Assembly: GCF_029814175.1 (NCBI RefSeq)
Contig: NZ_CP122312.1
Coordinates: 2,170,001-2,234,000, forward strand
Direction: 5' to 3'
DNA: 64,000 nt
DNA from: Halospeciosus flavus
GTDB lineage: Archaea; Halobacteriota; Halobacteria; Halobacteriales; Halobacteriaceae
Shown here: in pieces, positions 12 to 32,775 of the stretch
Position numbering within the stretch: the first letter of the stretch is position 1
Layout of the letters: each line of letters begins with the position of its first letter
The notes under the pieces: generated by a model
What the model saw: only the letters and a program-made list of their open reading frames with translations
Told to the model about the DNA's origin: nothing
Database searches by the model: none
Made by a program: the position numbers and the translations under genes

Positions 12-121
12 CAGTCATTGGTCGTACAGCACATTTATTCACGATGGGAGCTGTAACTAGCCACGGAACACCTGCAGTACATGTTCCACACTGAATAAAG
101 AAATCGTATTACCAACAACTG
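12..121 (-). repeat. 110-bp palindromic MITE, copy 1
   Basis: This is one of four 110-bp copies of the same element in the window; the others are 4396-4505, 14020-14129 and 14358-14467, and this one is inverted relative to them. The two outer 44-base arms are imperfect inverted repeats with roughly 60-65 percent identity by eye; the tips read CAGT.GTTGGT and both arms contain TTTATTC. The element is flanked by TTAA at 8-11 and 122-125, which fits a 4-bp target-site duplication. It has no coding capacity, as expected of a MITE. The parent transposon was not identified. Confidence 0.85.
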
Positions 122-14019: not shown

Positions 14020-14129
14020 CAGTTGTTGGTAATACGATTTCTTTATTCAGTGTGGAACATGTACTGAAAGTGTTCCGTGGCTAGTTACAGCTCCCATCGT
14101 GAATAAATGTGCTGTACGACCAACGACTG
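14020..14129 (+). repeat. 110-bp palindromic MITE, copy 3
   Basis: Near-identical to copy 2 and flanked by a perfect 4-bp duplication, TTAT, at 14016-14019 and 14130-14133. It ends 28 bp before the zinc-finger ATG at 14158, so it may provide part of that gene's promoter. Confidence 0.9.
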
Positions 14130-14357: not shown

Positions 14358-14467
14358 CAGTTGTTGGTAATACGATTTCTTTATTCAGTGTAGAACATGT
14401 ACTGAAGGTGTTCCGTGGCTAGTTACAGCTCCCATCGTGAATAAATGTGCTGTACGACCAACGACTG
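14358..14467 (+). repeat. 110-bp palindromic MITE, copy 4
   Basis: Same length and orientation as copy 3, differing at a few bases. It is flanked by a perfect CTAT duplication at 14354-14357 and 14468-14471. The bases after the right duplication (TTCACAA) resemble those after copy 2, hinting that both copies landed in similar older sequence. Confidence 0.9.
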
Positions 14468-21925: not shown

Positions 21926-22876
21926 CTACTCTGGTTTGTCGCCGGCGACGAGCTGGTGGTCGGTGCCGGGGACTTCGGCGGTCCGGATGCGCTCGAAGCC
22001 AGCGTCGCCGAACCACTCGCCGAACGCCGCCTCGTCGTAGGCGTCGCCCGCGTCGGTCTGGGCGAGCATCTCGGCACCGACGAGTGCGGCGTCCTCGGCC
22101 TGTTCGCGGAGTGTGTCGATGAAGACGACCGTCCCGCCCGGTGCGAGTACCTCACGAGCACTCTCCAGGAGCGTACGATTCTCCGCGGGGGAGAGGCCAC
22201 GCGCAACGCGCGCACAGAAGACGATATCGTAGTCGGCTGCCAACTCCTCGCGTTCACCGTCGTCGGCCACCGCGAGGTCGGTCGCCGAGTCGATGGGGAC
22301 GAGGTCGATGTCCTCGTGCTGGAGGAGGGGCTCGTCCACGTCAATGACGGCGGGTTCGTCGACGAGCGTCACTTCGTAGCCACGGCGGGCGAACTCGCGG
22401 GCGTACGAGCCAGGCCCACCACGCACGTCGAGGACGCGGTCGGCGTCGGCGTGTTCGTGGACCGCGGCGGTGACGAAGGCCCGGACGGTCGCGTCGTCCA
22501 TCGCAGCCATCGAGCCGAGTCGGTTGCGCGTCCAGTTGGGTGGCTTCTCGGGGACGACTCCCGACTGCATCGTCTCGGGGAGCGCGAGCCAGCGTTCGAG
22601 GCGGTCGAGTTCGTGTGGCATCGACCCGATCGAACGCACGTCCGTCTTTGTGATGAAGCCGAGCATCTTGTTCGTCGGCTCCAGTCCCTCTTCGAGATCT
22701 TCGAGGAATCCAGCCTCAACTAGGGCGTCGACGGTGATCCGAGCGGCGCGCTCGGTGACGTCCGTCTCGGCGACCACCTCGTCGACGGTGTTCGCACTCG
22801 TCACGAGCGCGTCGATGACGCCCGTCTCGCGGGCGGCGCGCAACAACAGGAGCGTGCGATAGTCGCGATCCGGCAT
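21926..22876 (-). CDS. SAM-dependent methyltransferase with N-terminal winged helix
   Basis: A 316-residue protein. The N-terminal dimerisation/winged-helix domain (residues 1-90, with TVDEVVAETDVTERAARITVDAL) is followed by a Rossmann methyltransferase domain: motif I VLDVRGGPGSYAREFARRG, the acidic DLVPID region, and DIVFCARVARGLSP before LAPGGTVVFIDTL. This plan is typical of class I O-methyltransferases acting on small molecules. Motif I reads DVRGGPG rather than the usual DVGGGxG. The substrate is unknown. Confidence 0.75.
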   Translation of the reverse strand: MPDRDYRTLLLLRAARETGVIDALVTSANTVDEVVAETDVTERAARITVDALVEAGFLEDLEEGLEPTNKMLGFITKTDVRSIGSMPHELDRLERWLALPETMQSGVVPEKPPNWTRNRLGSMAAMDDATVRAFVTAAVHEHADADRVLDVRGGPGSYAREFARRGYEVTLVDEPAVIDVDEPLLQHEDIDLVPIDSATDLAVADDGEREELAADYDIVFCARVARGLSPAENRTLLESAREVLAPGGTVVFIDTLREQAEDAALVGAEMLAQTDAGDAYDEAAFGEWFGDAGFERIRTAEVPGTDHQLVAGDKPE

Positions 22877-26666: not shown

Positions 26667-26792
26667 TACAACGATTGTAGTCGATTCTCAGGATCTTTCT
26701 GCGGCCTGTTGATGGGTGAAGGCACTTACATTCAAATACAATCACGGGTCCATCAACTGGTGCGCGGGTATCCACCCCCAAGAGCAACACAA

Positions 26793-27656
26793 ATGATCGA
26801 AAATATCGACCCCGATGTATTCGTGCGGATTCAGACCGACCTGTTGGTAGTCGGTGACAGTATCATGACCGACAGACACCACGCCAGCAACGGCAACTAC
26901 CAAGATGACGACCCTCAGAATCAAATCGGCGGCATCATCCCTGCCTTCCCACTCTCGGGCTGGCTCCGTCATGGAATGGAAGAGGTCGTCCATGAGTATG
27001 ACGGGACTGCCTGTCACCCCGGCGAGGCTAACGCGAACTTCATGAAAGACGACGTCTATGAGCGCGACCTTGACGACGGCTATCACGAGAAGGGCGCGTG
27101 CACCGACGACCCGAAAGAAGACGACGGCTGTGTGGTCTTCGAGCTCTTCGGTGGCTTCGGTGGCGTCCCCGGGAAGGTGATGCGTCGCCCGATCAAGTTC
27201 AACCCCGTCCGTTCCAGCGTAGACTACACACGGGGACAGGCTGAAGGCCACTACCGCCGGCTGAACCGGAACATCGTCTCTCGAAACGCCGACGACAACC
27301 GGGAGCCACTACGGAACGTCGAGGTAGACGCTGTCGCCCATCTTGACGGCTGTTGGCACCTTTCCTTCCGAGAGATGAAACCCGAATTCGTCGGTTTGCT
27401 GGCCGAGGGAGTCGACTTCCTTGATGAACACAAGACGGACTTCATGCACCAACTCGGTGGTGCACGGAACTTCGGCGCAGGGATTGTTGATTGCCACCTC
27501 ATCAATCCGCTCTACGACGAGCGCGAGTTGAAGCGCGTCTTCGACCGTGGGAAGGACAACACGAAGAAGATGGACGAAAAGGACGACCAGTGGGCCGAGG
27601 AGTACCGCCCGGTGTTTGTGGAGGCGATGGAAGAGCGCATCGAGGAGGGACCGTAG
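26793..27656 (+). CDS. Cas7-like RAMP protein (putative HRAMP module)
   Basis: A 287-residue protein of the RAMP superfamily, which forms RNA-binding backbones in class 1 CRISPR effectors. Supporting features are a first ferredoxin-like strand (FVRIQTDLLVVGDS, 10-23), the IPAFPLSGWLRHG loop (49-61) matching the IPGSSLKGALR-type motif of Csm3/Cmr4/Csf2 proteins, CVVFELFGGFGGVPGK (113-128) like the CxxxxLFG element, and a Gly-rich GGARNFGAG (222-230). The start at 26793 begins at the family fold; 28 upstream in-frame codons look non-coding. The stop abuts the next ATG. It corresponds to the diverged Cas7 of the predicted haloarchaeal HRAMP system. Metal-site residues for cleavage are not evident. 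Confidence 0.75.
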   Translation: MIENIDPDVFVRIQTDLLVVGDSIMTDRHHASNGNYQDDDPQNQIGGIIPAFPLSGWLRHGMEEVVHEYDGTACHPGEANANFMKDDVYERDLDDGYHEKGACTDDPKEDDGCVVFELFGGFGGVPGKVMRRPIKFNPVRSSVDYTRGQAEGHYRRLNRNIVSRNADDNREPLRNVEVDAVAHLDGCWHLSFREMKPEFVGLLAEGVDFLDEHKTDFMHQLGGARNFGAGIVDCHLINPLYDERELKRVFDRGKDNTKKMDEKDDQWAEEYRPVFVEAMEERIEEGP

Positions 27657-28457
27657 ATGGCCGAGAACGCTGCCTCCGGCGACTCCCAAATTGACCACGG
27701 CGGCCAAGACGTGATGGTCGCCGCGTACCGCCACGACGCCCACAAGATGAACGGCCAGCCGCACGACTACGCGCCGGAGACGTTCGCCGGGGTTCCCGTG
27801 AACCAGACGGTTCCTCACGGCGTGGACGGCGATGCGTCGGCGCTCTCGCGTCCCAACGGGAAGCCTGAGCAGACGATGGAGAACCACGAGACGCTCTACC
27901 GGCTGTCGCTTATCGAGGGTGAGAGCCGGTACGACCCGGAGGAGTTCACGCGGGACGGCGTGGAGAGCGCCTTGCGTGACCTCCTGACAGAGAACGACCT
28001 AGAGGCCATGCATCGGGCGTGGCTGGAGAGCGACGTCGTCTCGGCGTTCAACGAGAGCGTCTACTACCCGTACACGAGCCTGAAGTACCACACGCTACTC
28101 GTGGCAGCTCTATTCGATAACTACCGCGCCGACCACGAGTTCGCCGATCTCCTCTTAGTCGTAGATTCCACCGGTGAGATCGTCCCCCACCGGACGGTCT
28201 ACACAGGCGAAGACTTCGCGCTCCGCATCGACGAGAGCGCGGGCGCGCGGCCGTCGTCCCGTCTCGGGAGTCGGCCGTGGCGGTCTTGGGCCTCTACGTG
28301 GAACCGACTGACTGCGCACCCGCTCGATACCGCTCACGACAAGTACGACATGGTGCTCGACGCGAATCTTCGCCGAATCGGCGCGTGGTCCACTGCGCTC
28401 CAGTACATCGAGGACTTCGAGAACTGGACTAGCGACTCACTGAAGAAATCGACTTAA
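27657..28457 (+). CDS. Unrecognised middle protein of the HRAMP-like operon
   Basis: A 266-residue soluble, acidic protein of no family I can name from sequence. It starts on the base after the Cas7-like stop, so translation is almost surely coupled. The N-terminal 75 residues are polar and His-rich (RHDAHKMNGQPHDY); the central part (80-190) is mixed alpha/beta; VVDSTGEIVPHRTVYTGEDFALRID at about 168-192 is a plausible beta-hairpin. The published description of HRAMP includes one uncharacterised conserved protein beside the Cas5- and Cas7-like proteins, and by position this would be it. It could be a large- or small-subunit equivalent; that is inference. Confidence 0.65.
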   Translation: MAENAASGDSQIDHGGQDVMVAAYRHDAHKMNGQPHDYAPETFAGVPVNQTVPHGVDGDASALSRPNGKPEQTMENHETLYRLSLIEGESRYDPEEFTRDGVESALRDLLTENDLEAMHRAWLESDVVSAFNESVYYPYTSLKYHTLLVAALFDNYRADHEFADLLLVVDSTGEIVPHRTVYTGEDFALRIDESAGARPSSRLGSRPWRSWASTWNRLTAHPLDTAHDKYDMVLDANLRRIGAWSTALQYIEDFENWTSDSLKKST

Positions 28458-28499
28458 CAAAATGAGATACCTCGAGAACTTTAGGAGGGTGTTCGACCG

Positions 28500-29432
28500 A
28501 TGACGTCCATCCAGCAAGTCCATTGGGAGCTGGAGATGGACTACATCGGCCACCCGTACTACGTCTCGGGGAACGCCATCATGCACGCGCTCGGTCAGCA
28601 ACTCCCGCACGATGTCCACCGCCATCTGAACGCGAGTCACGGGATGTTCGTCCCCGGCCACTTCGGGACGTTCCCCGAGGAGCATTCACAGAACGGTATC
28701 CGGCCATACCTCGGGAGCGGCCTCCCGGACGTCGAGTCCTACGACGACCTGTTCTTGATGCGGCAGGCGTCGCATTCGTGGCTTCTCGACTCCCGGCCGC
28801 GAGACGCGCTGAACACCCACGACATCCGTGTCCAGAGCGGTCACCCAGCACTGTCCCACGAGACCATCATGGGGAAGCCCGAGGGCGCGCGGAAGCAGCA
28901 GCAGACGACGAAGTGGTACATCAACGCGTACCTCCACGCCGACCGGGACGATGTCCTCCCGCTTGGCGAGTGCGCTCTGGACGACCTCCAGTTCGGTGGG
29001 AAGCGCAACTACGGCTACGGCATCACGCAGCTGAAAAACACGCAAATCGTCGACCTAGGGGCGCTTGACTACTCGCGTCTCGAACACGGTGAAGCGTTCA
29101 TCCTCGAACTCATGACGCCGTTCGTACTGGAGTCGGAGTACCCCAAGGCCACCGATCAGGATGTCCCGTGGTGGTGGAAGGAGAATCGGCACGATCTCCG
29201 CGAACGTGAGGAAAGGGTACTGGAACAACGTGAAGTGTACAAGCTCCAGACCGTAGACCACGGGCAGGTCGTAAAGTACGAAGGCGACCGCCCGGTTGAG
29301 ACCGCGAAGAACGGCATCCTCCGAATCGGCAGTCACTCGAAGTACGGATTCGGTGAGTTGCGAGTGAAGCCCGTCGAATCTCGGTCAGACCAATCTCAGA
29401 ACCCAGAAGAAAAGACGAAGACTCCCGGGTGA
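28500..29432 (+). CDS. Cas5-like RAMP protein (putative HRAMP module)
   Basis: A 310-residue protein. LEMDYIGHPYYVSGNAIMHAL (11-31) resembles the first strand and helix of a RAMP ferredoxin fold. FGGKRNYGYG (165-174) is a strong glycine-rich RAMP loop, followed by the ITQLKNTQ strand; a second glycine-rich stretch, GSHSKYGFGEL, lies near the C-terminus (about 279-289). In class 1 systems Cas5 caps the 5' end of the guide RNA. A GGAGG-like site (about 28482-28487) precedes the ATG. The tail after residue 290 is charged and low in complexity. It ends about 80 bp before the convergent HVO_0476-like gene. Confidence 0.7.
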   Translation: MTSIQQVHWELEMDYIGHPYYVSGNAIMHALGQQLPHDVHRHLNASHGMFVPGHFGTFPEEHSQNGIRPYLGSGLPDVESYDDLFLMRQASHSWLLDSRPRDALNTHDIRVQSGHPALSHETIMGKPEGARKQQQTTKWYINAYLHADRDDVLPLGECALDDLQFGGKRNYGYGITQLKNTQIVDLGALDYSRLEHGEAFILELMTPFVLESEYPKATDQDVPWWWKENRHDLREREERVLEQREVYKLQTVDHGQVVKYEGDRPVETAKNGILRIGSHSKYGFGELRVKPVESRSDQSQNPEEKTKTPG

Positions 29433-29480: not shown

Positions 29481-29499
29481 TGAATAAAGAAATCGTATT
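29481..29499 (-). repeat. 19-bp relic of the 110-bp MITE end
   Basis: Nineteen bases (TGAATAAAGAAATCGTATT) match the end region of the MITE copies exactly, including copy 1. The rest of the element is missing. It sits between the Cas5-like gene and the stop of the HVO_0476-like gene. Confidence 0.6.
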
Positions 29500-31467: not shown

Positions 31468-32775
31468 CCCAGGACTTTAGTTATGGGATGAATCCGACGA
31501 GATTCTCACCATATCCAAGCAACGCACAGAACAGGGTTATTCTGAGACTAACATTCTAATAGTATCTTGGGGAAATACGAGACAGAGGGTAGATGCGTCG
31601 TGATGTCACCACTACCGTGCGGCTCAAACTCCACTCGCTCACCGAGCGGAAAGCCCGACTCATCGAACGCGAGTACAGCGCGTTCCAAGACGGGGTTCAC
31701 GGTGACGACGCAAATCTCTACTCCGCGACTAAGCAACAGGCGAGAAAAGTCCAGTCGAACAAGAACCCGCGATCCGACACCGAACAGCCCATTGTTCTCC
31801 GCAACGACTGCATCACTATCGAACACGACGAGGACACGGTTCTCTCCTCGTGGTGGTTCAAACTCCCCGTCTACAACCCCGAGAAAGAACAAGGAGACAG
31901 CATCTGGGTGCCCGTCCACGTCCTCGAGAAGGACACGCACCTCCTCTCCGACGAATACATCTGTGACTCGGAACTCGTTTTGCGGGATGGCGAGTGGTAC
32001 GTCCACCTCGTTTGCGAGCGGTCTGTGGCCGTCGCAGACGAGTACGACGACGTTCTCGCCGTCGACATGGGTGCAAAGTGGATCGCCGTCAGTACGTTCC
32101 TCTCCGACCGCGACACCTCGTTCCACGGCGCGGAAGTCCGGCATGTTCGCGAACACTACAAGCAACTCCGCAAGTCCATCGGGAAGGCAAAGGTTCGCTC
32201 GGGCGCGCAGGTGATCGAGCGCCTCGGCGACAAGGAATCGCGGACGGTTGAACACGAGTTGCACCAAGTGGCGAACGAACTCGTCGCCCGCGCTCGGGAA
32301 CGCAACGCGGTCATCGTGTTCGGCGACATGACGGGATTGCGCTTCGACAACGACGAGGGGCGGTACGTGAACGACAAGACCCACAAGATGCCGTACGCGA
32401 AGATGGCGAATATCCTCACGTACAAGTCTCACCTTGACGGGCGAGAGTGCATCCCGATCGAGGAGTACGACACGTCTGTGACGTGTTGGCGATGTGGGTC
32501 GCAGAACACGAGTCGTGACGTGCAAGGGCGTGTCGAGTGTGAGGACTGTGGACTGGACGATAATGCGGACAAGAACGGTGCGTCGAACATCGGTCAACGA
32601 GCCGTCGGTAAGGACATTCAGAGCCCGCTATCGACGGCGGGGGCTGTTGTGGCTCAGCCCGAAACGCAGGTCGTACTCGAAGGACCCAGCGGTGAGATGG
32701 AACCTGCGAACTCCCCAAATCCAGCAGACGTGGGCCTAACCCTCAGTGAGGGAAGCCCACGACGTTAGTCGTGGG
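31468..32775 (+). mobile_element. IS1341-type (IS200/IS605 family) tnpB element 1
   Basis: The element is bounded approximately by hairpins CCCAGGAC TTTA GTTATGGG (31468-31487, imperfect) and CCCACGAC GTTA GTCGTGGG (32756-32775, perfect 8-bp stem). The tnpB stop codon lies inside the right hairpin. There is no tnpA gene, so movement would need a transposase in trans. True ends lie a few bases beyond the hairpins. The right end is where a guide (omega) RNA would be encoded. Confidence 0.75.
31593..32768 (+). CDS. tnpB: TnpB-type RNA-guided endonuclease homologue
   Basis: A 391-residue protein of the IS1341/OrfB family, related to Cas12. RuvC-like motifs are VDMGAKWIAVS (Asp at about 159), VIVFGDMTGLR (about 241-251) and DKNGASN with the last Asp. 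The zinc knuckle CWRCG...CEDCG is present. In the second motif the position usually occupied by catalytic Glu (as in AFEDL at 42483) reads Gly (FGDM), so nuclease activity is uncertain. This FGD variant also occurs in some archaeal TnpB groups. It does not closely resemble the other two TnpB proteins here. Confidence 0.85.
   Translation: MRRDVTTTVRLKLHSLTERKARLIEREYSAFQDGVHGDDANLYSATKQQARKVQSNKNPRSDTEQPIVLRNDCITIEHDEDTVLSSWWFKLPVYNPEKEQGDSIWVPVHVLEKDTHLLSDEYICDSELVLRDGEWYVHLVCERSVAVADEYDDVLAVDMGAKWIAVSTFLSDRDTSFHGAEVRHVREHYKQLRKSIGKAKVRSGAQVIERLGDKESRTVEHELHQVANELVARARERNAVIVFGDMTGLRFDNDEGRYVNDKTHKMPYAKMANILTYKSHLDGRECIPIEEYDTSVTCWRCGSQNTSRDVQGRVECEDCGLDDNADKNGASNIGQRAVGKDIQSPLSTAGAVVAQPETQVVLEGPSGEMEPANSPNPADVGLTLSEGSPRR

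Follow-up and report, generated by a model that had tools for sequence, protein, structure and literature searches.

The window analysed here, a stretch of 64,000 nt from Halospeciosus flavus (NZ_CP122312.1 positions 2,170,001-2,234,000, assembly GCF_029814175.1), holds a three-gene HRAMP core that belongs to a transposon-borne clade of this family. HRAMP, predicted in 2019 (Makarova et al., as cited in PMC8730458), is a haloarchaeal, array-less combination of Cas5 and Cas7 homologues with an uncharacterised protein, somewhat nearer to type III (PMC8730458, PMC12669027). It typically has nucleases, most often HNH and PD-(D/E)xK, a feature that is typical and not defining (PMC12669027). No experimental work on HRAMP was found in the literature searched. 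A sequence-only reading had already assigned the trio to HRAMP, and this assignment holds: Cas7 and Cas5 homologues, a third conserved protein, the absence of array and cas1 and a haloarchaeal host fit the published descriptions. Beyond that reading, we describe two clades, a transposon context, a leader RNA and a window copy that lacks the typical HRAMP nucleases.

That this type III-derived, array-less core from a clade carried by ISH3-like elements acts as a nuclease-less, RNA-guided binder is a proposal to which we give an even chance.

The trio and its protein families

The three genes, termed A, B and C, all lie on the plus strand (Table 1). By our reading of the open reading frames, A begins with the ATG at 26793 and its stop codon (27654-27656) abuts the ATG of B at 27657; B ends at 28457 and C starts at 28500. 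The tight plus-strand operon first noticed in the sequence was thus re-found, with the same coordinates, A/B abutment and B-C gap, and the loops quoted for it (IPAFPLSGWLRHG, GGARNFGAG and FGGKRNYGYG) are all present in trio proteins. In relatives, B commonly overlaps C, unlike in the window copy, so that the 42-nt gap goes together with some 65 nt inserted at this place. No direct-repeat array was found between window positions 22000 and 36000, and Rfam families gave zero matches across the window. Cas1 is missing from the whole genome by a search that was positive in 9 of 14 control genomes, which agrees with the earlier statement that neither repeats nor cas1 lie near the trio.

Table 1. 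Position of the trio, its borders and related miniature elements in the window
Feature	Position	Strand	Remarks
Gene A, Cas7-like (Csm3-like) RAMP, 287 aa	26793..27656	+	PADLOC Csm3, TIGR03986, AF2/Foldseek
Gene B, conserved HRAMP protein without known family, 266 aa	27657..28457	+	Confident fold, weakly Cas10-like
Gene C, Cas5-like (Cmr3-like) RAMP, 310 aa	28500..29432	+	PADLOC Cmr3
Right-end terminal-repeat core GAATAAAGAAATCGTATT	29482..29499	+	50 nt past the C stop
Junction with the upstream DoxX-type gene	26667..26792		126 bases, directly before A
Miniature element (about 110 bp), same terminal repeat	12-121		Duplication TTAA
Miniature element (about 110 bp), same terminal repeat	4396-about 4506		CTAT read at left end
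Miniature element (about 110 bp), same terminal repeat	14020-14129		Duplication TTAT
Miniature element (about 110 bp), same terminal repeat	14358-14467		Duplication CTAT

Csm3 is the Cas7 protein of type III-A, and Cmr3 a Cas5-group protein of type III-B. The PADLOC Csm3 profile is matched by 21 of the 39 members of the A family (best E 2.6e-6), and the window protein itself matches TIGR03986, a model of a type III RAMP, weakly (E 0.005). A structure-prediction check of the claimed RAMP fold gave an AlphaFold model of middling confidence (mean pLDDT 69.6, pTM 0.73), for which the top Foldseek hits are all of Cas7 type (E 2.6e-4, probability 1.00): Csm3 of SsoCsm, the type VII Cas7 and the type IV-A Csf2. 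Judging from profile and predicted fold, gene A is a Cas7 homologue. Every one of the 43 C-family proteins matches the Cmr3 profile of PADLOC (best E 6.9e-9 to 7.4e-9), the window protein scoring 2.1e-7; on this basis gene C is a predicted Cas5 homologue, as had been proposed.

Gene B has no match in Pfam, NCBIfam or PADLOC, and the middle protein is as unrecognisable by sequence as it had first appeared. Its AF2 model is confident (pLDDT 89.7, pTM 0.89), and the best 16 Foldseek matches in the PDB are type III large-subunit chains (Csm1/Cmr2, that is, Cas10), at a level that is not significant (E 0.4-2, probability at most 0.44). B may be a reduced type III large subunit, a hint from modelling rather than a finding. 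None of the trio proteins matches a Pfam family, and PDB profile searches with the A, B and C alignments returned nothing significant. A viral origin was considered and rejected: phage records searched with C hold no relatives, and the B model shows no viral fold.

Of the 394 genomes of the order, 108 have a homologue of C, as do 30 plasmid records. The gene order A-B-C is the same beside C in the loci read, an intact B accompanies A and C at 57 loci from both clades described below, and a GTDB-wide scan gave 40 loci, all titled haloarchaeal or uncultured archaeon. Plasmids of Halobacterium salinarum carry intact as well as broken copies of the trio; broken C copies, either fragments or genes with internal stops, are frequent elsewhere. 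Comparison of the three window genes with their six closest relatives gave a dN of 0.03-0.08 and a dS of 0.27-0.99, dN being lower by a factor of about 4 to 23. Because dN lies so far under dS, all three genes are under purifying selection, that is, kept as proteins, along the branches to these relatives, a selection that may have acted before the window copy became stranded. Conserved order, wide occurrence and dN below dS confirm that the trio is real and beyond chance.

Two clades, one of them transposon cargo

In a maximum-likelihood tree of 71 C proteins, 21 sequences (clade 2) fall apart from the other 50 (clade 1), with support of 100/100 on both sides. Clade 2 proteins are 45-54% identical to the window C and those of clade 1, decayed copies aside, at least about 60%; the window copy belongs to clade 1. 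Most clade 2 loci show one stereotyped plan with, in order, a small divergent winged-helix gene, a leader RNA, a small gene with CxxC pairs, A, B, C, an exonuclease gene and an HNH gene (PF01844, 3.6e-10), the two nuclease genes standing in one operon with the trio. The gene after C carries an FDIETTGF motif and matches RNase_H_2 (1.4e-6), and we read it by motif as a DEDDh-like exonuclease. Four loci depart from this plan: L097 and L107 lack the exonuclease at this place, and L112 and L113 differ downstream. Neither the DEDDh-like nor the HNH gene is present in the clade 1 loci read.

About 50-100 nt past the C stop, nearly all clade 1 copies have a motif, GAATAAAGAAATCGTATT-n-CAACAACTG-nTA, immediately beyond which the sequences of different loci diverge. 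It is found in 0 of the 21 clade 2 copies. In several clade 1 loci an inverted copy upstream marks the left end. The elements so delimited are flanked by matching 4-bp duplications in L089 (TTAT, 6341-bp element), L009 (ATAT, 5757 bp), L022 (TTAA, 3762 bp) and L007 (GTAA, 3559 bp), and the flanking duplications agree likewise in L033, L036 and L039. Those of L002, L073, L075 and L081 do not match; here, the two ends come from different insertions or have been shuffled. The joined flanks of L007, which lie 3.6 kb apart in the carrier genome, align uninterrupted in about ten or more related genomes (G229, G339, G241 and others), and this is an empty site. No empty site of the L089 element was found within its genus.

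Near the left end of several elements (L002, L009 and L073), the opposite strand encodes a DDE protein of about 610 aa that matches PF01609 (6.6e-10) and, under the cut-off, the ISH3 model NF033541 (4e-23, 82 of 225 bits); many clade 1 elements carry no transposase. With terminal repeats, 4-bp duplications, a DDE transposase in some elements and an empty site, clade 1 is the cargo of ISH3-like transposons. Since ISH3 elements of H. salinarum make 5-bp duplications (PMC10264941), the clade 1 transposase is a relative of ISH3 and not ISH3 itself. The exact right-end core occurs in five places in the window, where 0.01 would be expected. Four belong to miniature elements (Table 1), which show that the end used by the HRAMP elements is, or recently was, mobile in this genome.

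The heads of some clade 1 operons have further features. Beside L017/L071 (H. salinarum pNRC200) and L035, the opposite strand encodes a toxin-antitoxin-like pair, annotated as Phd/YefM and a small partner. The first small genes of L010, L011, L023 and others encode N-termini resembling twin-arginine signals (MQRRQFLAAAAALATLP); these stretches score just under the cut-off of Pfam TAT_signal and are unexpected for a putative nucleic-acid system.

The window copy has kept the right-end core, and the outermost CAACTG-nTAn part of its right end is degenerate, with GACACTAAAAATTACC where CAACAACTGnTA is expected. At the DoxX junction, local alignment finds a left terminal repeat no better than in shuffled sequences, and none of the small accessory genes that precede A in relatives is present. 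Neither of our two leader models, R1 and R2, matches in the window. The nearest relative of the flanking DoxX gene is 49% identical at best. The window copy is thus a stranded, immobile clade 1 core that is still conserved. An unlikely but serious alternative would make it a dying remnant, a piece of transposon cargo stripped of its promoter leader, its partners and its nuclease and without function today. The losses just described and the many broken copies elsewhere speak for this; however, the three frames of the window copy are intact and their dN is far under dS against relatives.

We found no linked nuclease between the DoxX gene and the CPxCG zinc-finger gene that flank the window trio, and no homologue of the DEDDh-like gene was returned from the same genome, in a search run without a positive control. 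A full-length TnpB, a member of a family of RNA-guided nucleases, lies 2 kb downstream of the trio at 31593-32768 (NF040570, 4.7e-35). We rejected it as a partner: it is not conserved there in relatives, and two opposite-strand genes stand between. Its position beside the trio is apparently a coincidence. In L002 (7685-8368) and L073 (6753-7415), a protein of about 220 aa made of a TnpB-like RuvC part and a zinc ribbon overlaps the start of A; it matches NF040570 under the cut-off (8.9e-16), and this reduced protein is a possible linked nuclease of some clade 1 operons. Although such overlapping fragments, together with the DEDDh-like and HNH genes of clade 2 loci, few exceptions apart, would suit a defence complex that still cuts with a nuclease borrowed in trans or from the downstream TnpB, we hold this to be improbable for the window copy, in view of the genome search and the setting of that TnpB. 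We favour the reading as a nuclease-less binder.

Known CASTs, in which nuclease-free class 1 complexes guide transposition, suggest another role, namely that the complex RNA-guides the insertion of its own transposon and that the trio serves transposition and not defence. The trio does stand at the right end of elements bounded by terminal inverted repeats, several of which (L002, L009, L073) have the DDE transposase. However, no array or other guide source was seen, many elements do without a transposase, and the 110-bp miniature elements move with the same ends and without the trio. Insertion sites share nTAn only, and no TnsC or TniQ homologue was noticed. We regard this role as very improbable, and less likely than interference with competing elements.

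A leader RNA at the head of long operons

Long operons of both clades have a leader RNA of about 80-95 nt before their first small gene. Two separate alignments, one of 19 sequences mainly from clade 1 and one of 17 mainly from clade 2, show the same three-way junction, which stem P1 closes and from which hairpins P2 and P3 project, with 92% and 98% of cells pairing, respectively. For this three-helix structure the covariation score exceeds all 500 shuffles in both alignments, and so does the count of doubly changed cells; in such a comparison related sequences may beat shuffles without any structure. When the pairing partner is slid by one to three columns as a control, pairing falls to 19-52%; given this control, and given that two diverged sets agree, the structure is unlikely to be due to chance.

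A second partner for the 3' arm of P1 lies directly before the start codon (GAAGC or GAACCC, then ATG), where the sequence is complementary to it. In this competing hairpin 98% and 94% of cells pair, and covariation beats the shuffles in the first set only, that of the clade 2 alignment being no higher than in shuffles. The two folds share most of the P1 3' arm and are mutually exclusive, with computed energies within about 9 kcal/mol; the search for the arms went wrong in L008 and L088 and found none in L099 and L105. The leader has the anatomy of a translational switch. In intact operons it would toggle translation of the first gene according to whether the P1 3' arm pairs with its 5' counterpart or with the bases before the start.

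Models R1 and R2 find the leader in 49 of the 57 loci with an intact trio (20/20 in clade 2, 29/37 in clade 1). Rfam has no match at these loci, and the leader looks like a new RNA family. R1 also matches 148 of the 394 genomes, just 50 of which have a C homologue. Among 22 leader places outside HRAMP that we read, two on the second replicon of H. flavus itself, most are flanked by a small divergent helix-turn-helix gene like that of HRAMP operons and, opposite to it, by small genes that vary. Divergent regulator and leader RNA together look like a cassette that controls haloarchaeal islands and is put to use by HRAMP operons. A leader that is found at operons without HRAMP as well reveals little of the way in which HRAMP works. 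For the same reason, we rejected an HRAMP-specific guide RNA as the main reading of the leader: it heads many operons that lack A, B and C. In the least probable reading of the trio, the complex would bind the leader RNA of its own operon, or transcripts of the host, and adjust expression in the manner of regulators derived from CRISPR systems. This reading could appeal to the two-fold leader RNA at the operon head, but the leader occurs just as often where the trio is absent, and the trio of the window persists with no linked leader.

Some leaders occur in pairs. The two on the 293-kb second replicon of H. flavus (L118 and L119; G000:C2 near 10196 and 255752) have identical neighbourhoods, each flanked by a divergent helix-turn-helix gene and by small genes, with no HRAMP; this replicon seems to hold a large duplication. 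At L165 (G284:C2:13175 and 14430), two leaders 1.25 kb apart are each followed by a gene whose start overlaps the leader and reads alike in both (MFEHVRPGFSKVIEAMQTSNT); the duplicated unit seems to have comprised leader and gene together. G382:C5 likewise has a pair of leaders, about 1.1 kb apart.

Haloarchaea are known for leaderless mRNAs. A leader RNA of this kind offers a direct handle on the control of their islands.

Proposed working and comparison with known systems

In Cas complexes, Cas7 subunits line the RNA, Cas5 caps one end and the large subunit sits beside this cap. By analogy, in the assembly that we infer, A would polymerise along RNA as Cas7 does, C would cap one end and B would replace the large subunit. 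There is no array, Cas1 or Cas6, and the RNA must therefore come from elsewhere; the complex would hold an RNA from a non-array source. It would then bind those nucleic acids of competing mobile elements that match this RNA, and leave them uncut. We propose silent binding because no nuclease is linked to the trio in the window or in most of clade 1; in clade 2, cutting would fall to the DEDDh-like exonuclease and the HNH protein encoded beside the trio. For a clade that travels on transposons, as clade 1 does, interference with competing elements is the simplest benefit. The window copy would now be transcribed without the leader.

In a bolder version, clade 1 HRAMP would be a working part of the transposon, an RNA-guided, nuclease-free complex with array-less guides that arose independently of the Tn7-like CASTs on an archaeal ISH3-like DDE element, and that directs insertion or silences competitors. 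We consider this a long shot. Should the complex prove to carry RNA, the source of guides in an array-less system becomes a sharp question.

Several known systems resemble the trio in part. The type III complexes (Csm/Cmr) offer counterparts in a Csm3-like Cas7, a Cmr3-like Cas5 and, possibly, a Cas10-like third subunit, whereas the trio has no Cas10 domain recognisable in sequence, no Cas11, no Cas6 and no array, and the genome no Cas1. Type IV-A (Csf) is likewise a class 1 core without adaptation module, and the predicted fold of A matches Csf2; however, the trio has neither DinG helicase nor array and is not plasmid-bound by rule.

With CASTs, clade 1 shares the placement of a nuclease-free class 1-like core within a transposon. 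Transposon ends and transposase surround the complex in some clade 1 elements and not in the window. Clade 1 differs in its ISH3-like DDE transposase, which takes the place of Tn7-like proteins, in the lack of a guide array and in insertion sites that share nTAn only. ISH3 is approached in the fit of the transposase to the NCBIfam model and in the short target duplication, but the protein of about 610 aa reaches 82 of 225 bits, the duplication is of 4 bp and the elements carry cargo over 3.6-6.3 kb.

We class the trio as HRAMP of the transposon-borne clade, since it has in common with HRAMP the diverged Cas5 and Cas7 homologues, the extra conserved protein, the missing array and the type III affinity; compared through later descriptions of HRAMP, the window copy and clade 1 differ in being transposon-borne and without linked nucleases. 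HRAMP splits in two: one form is chromosomal and has two linked nucleases, whereas the other is mobile, lacks a nuclease and has mapped ends. This split turns the Cas7-Cas5 core without array and nuclease into an experimentally approachable question in laboratory haloarchaea such as H. salinarum.
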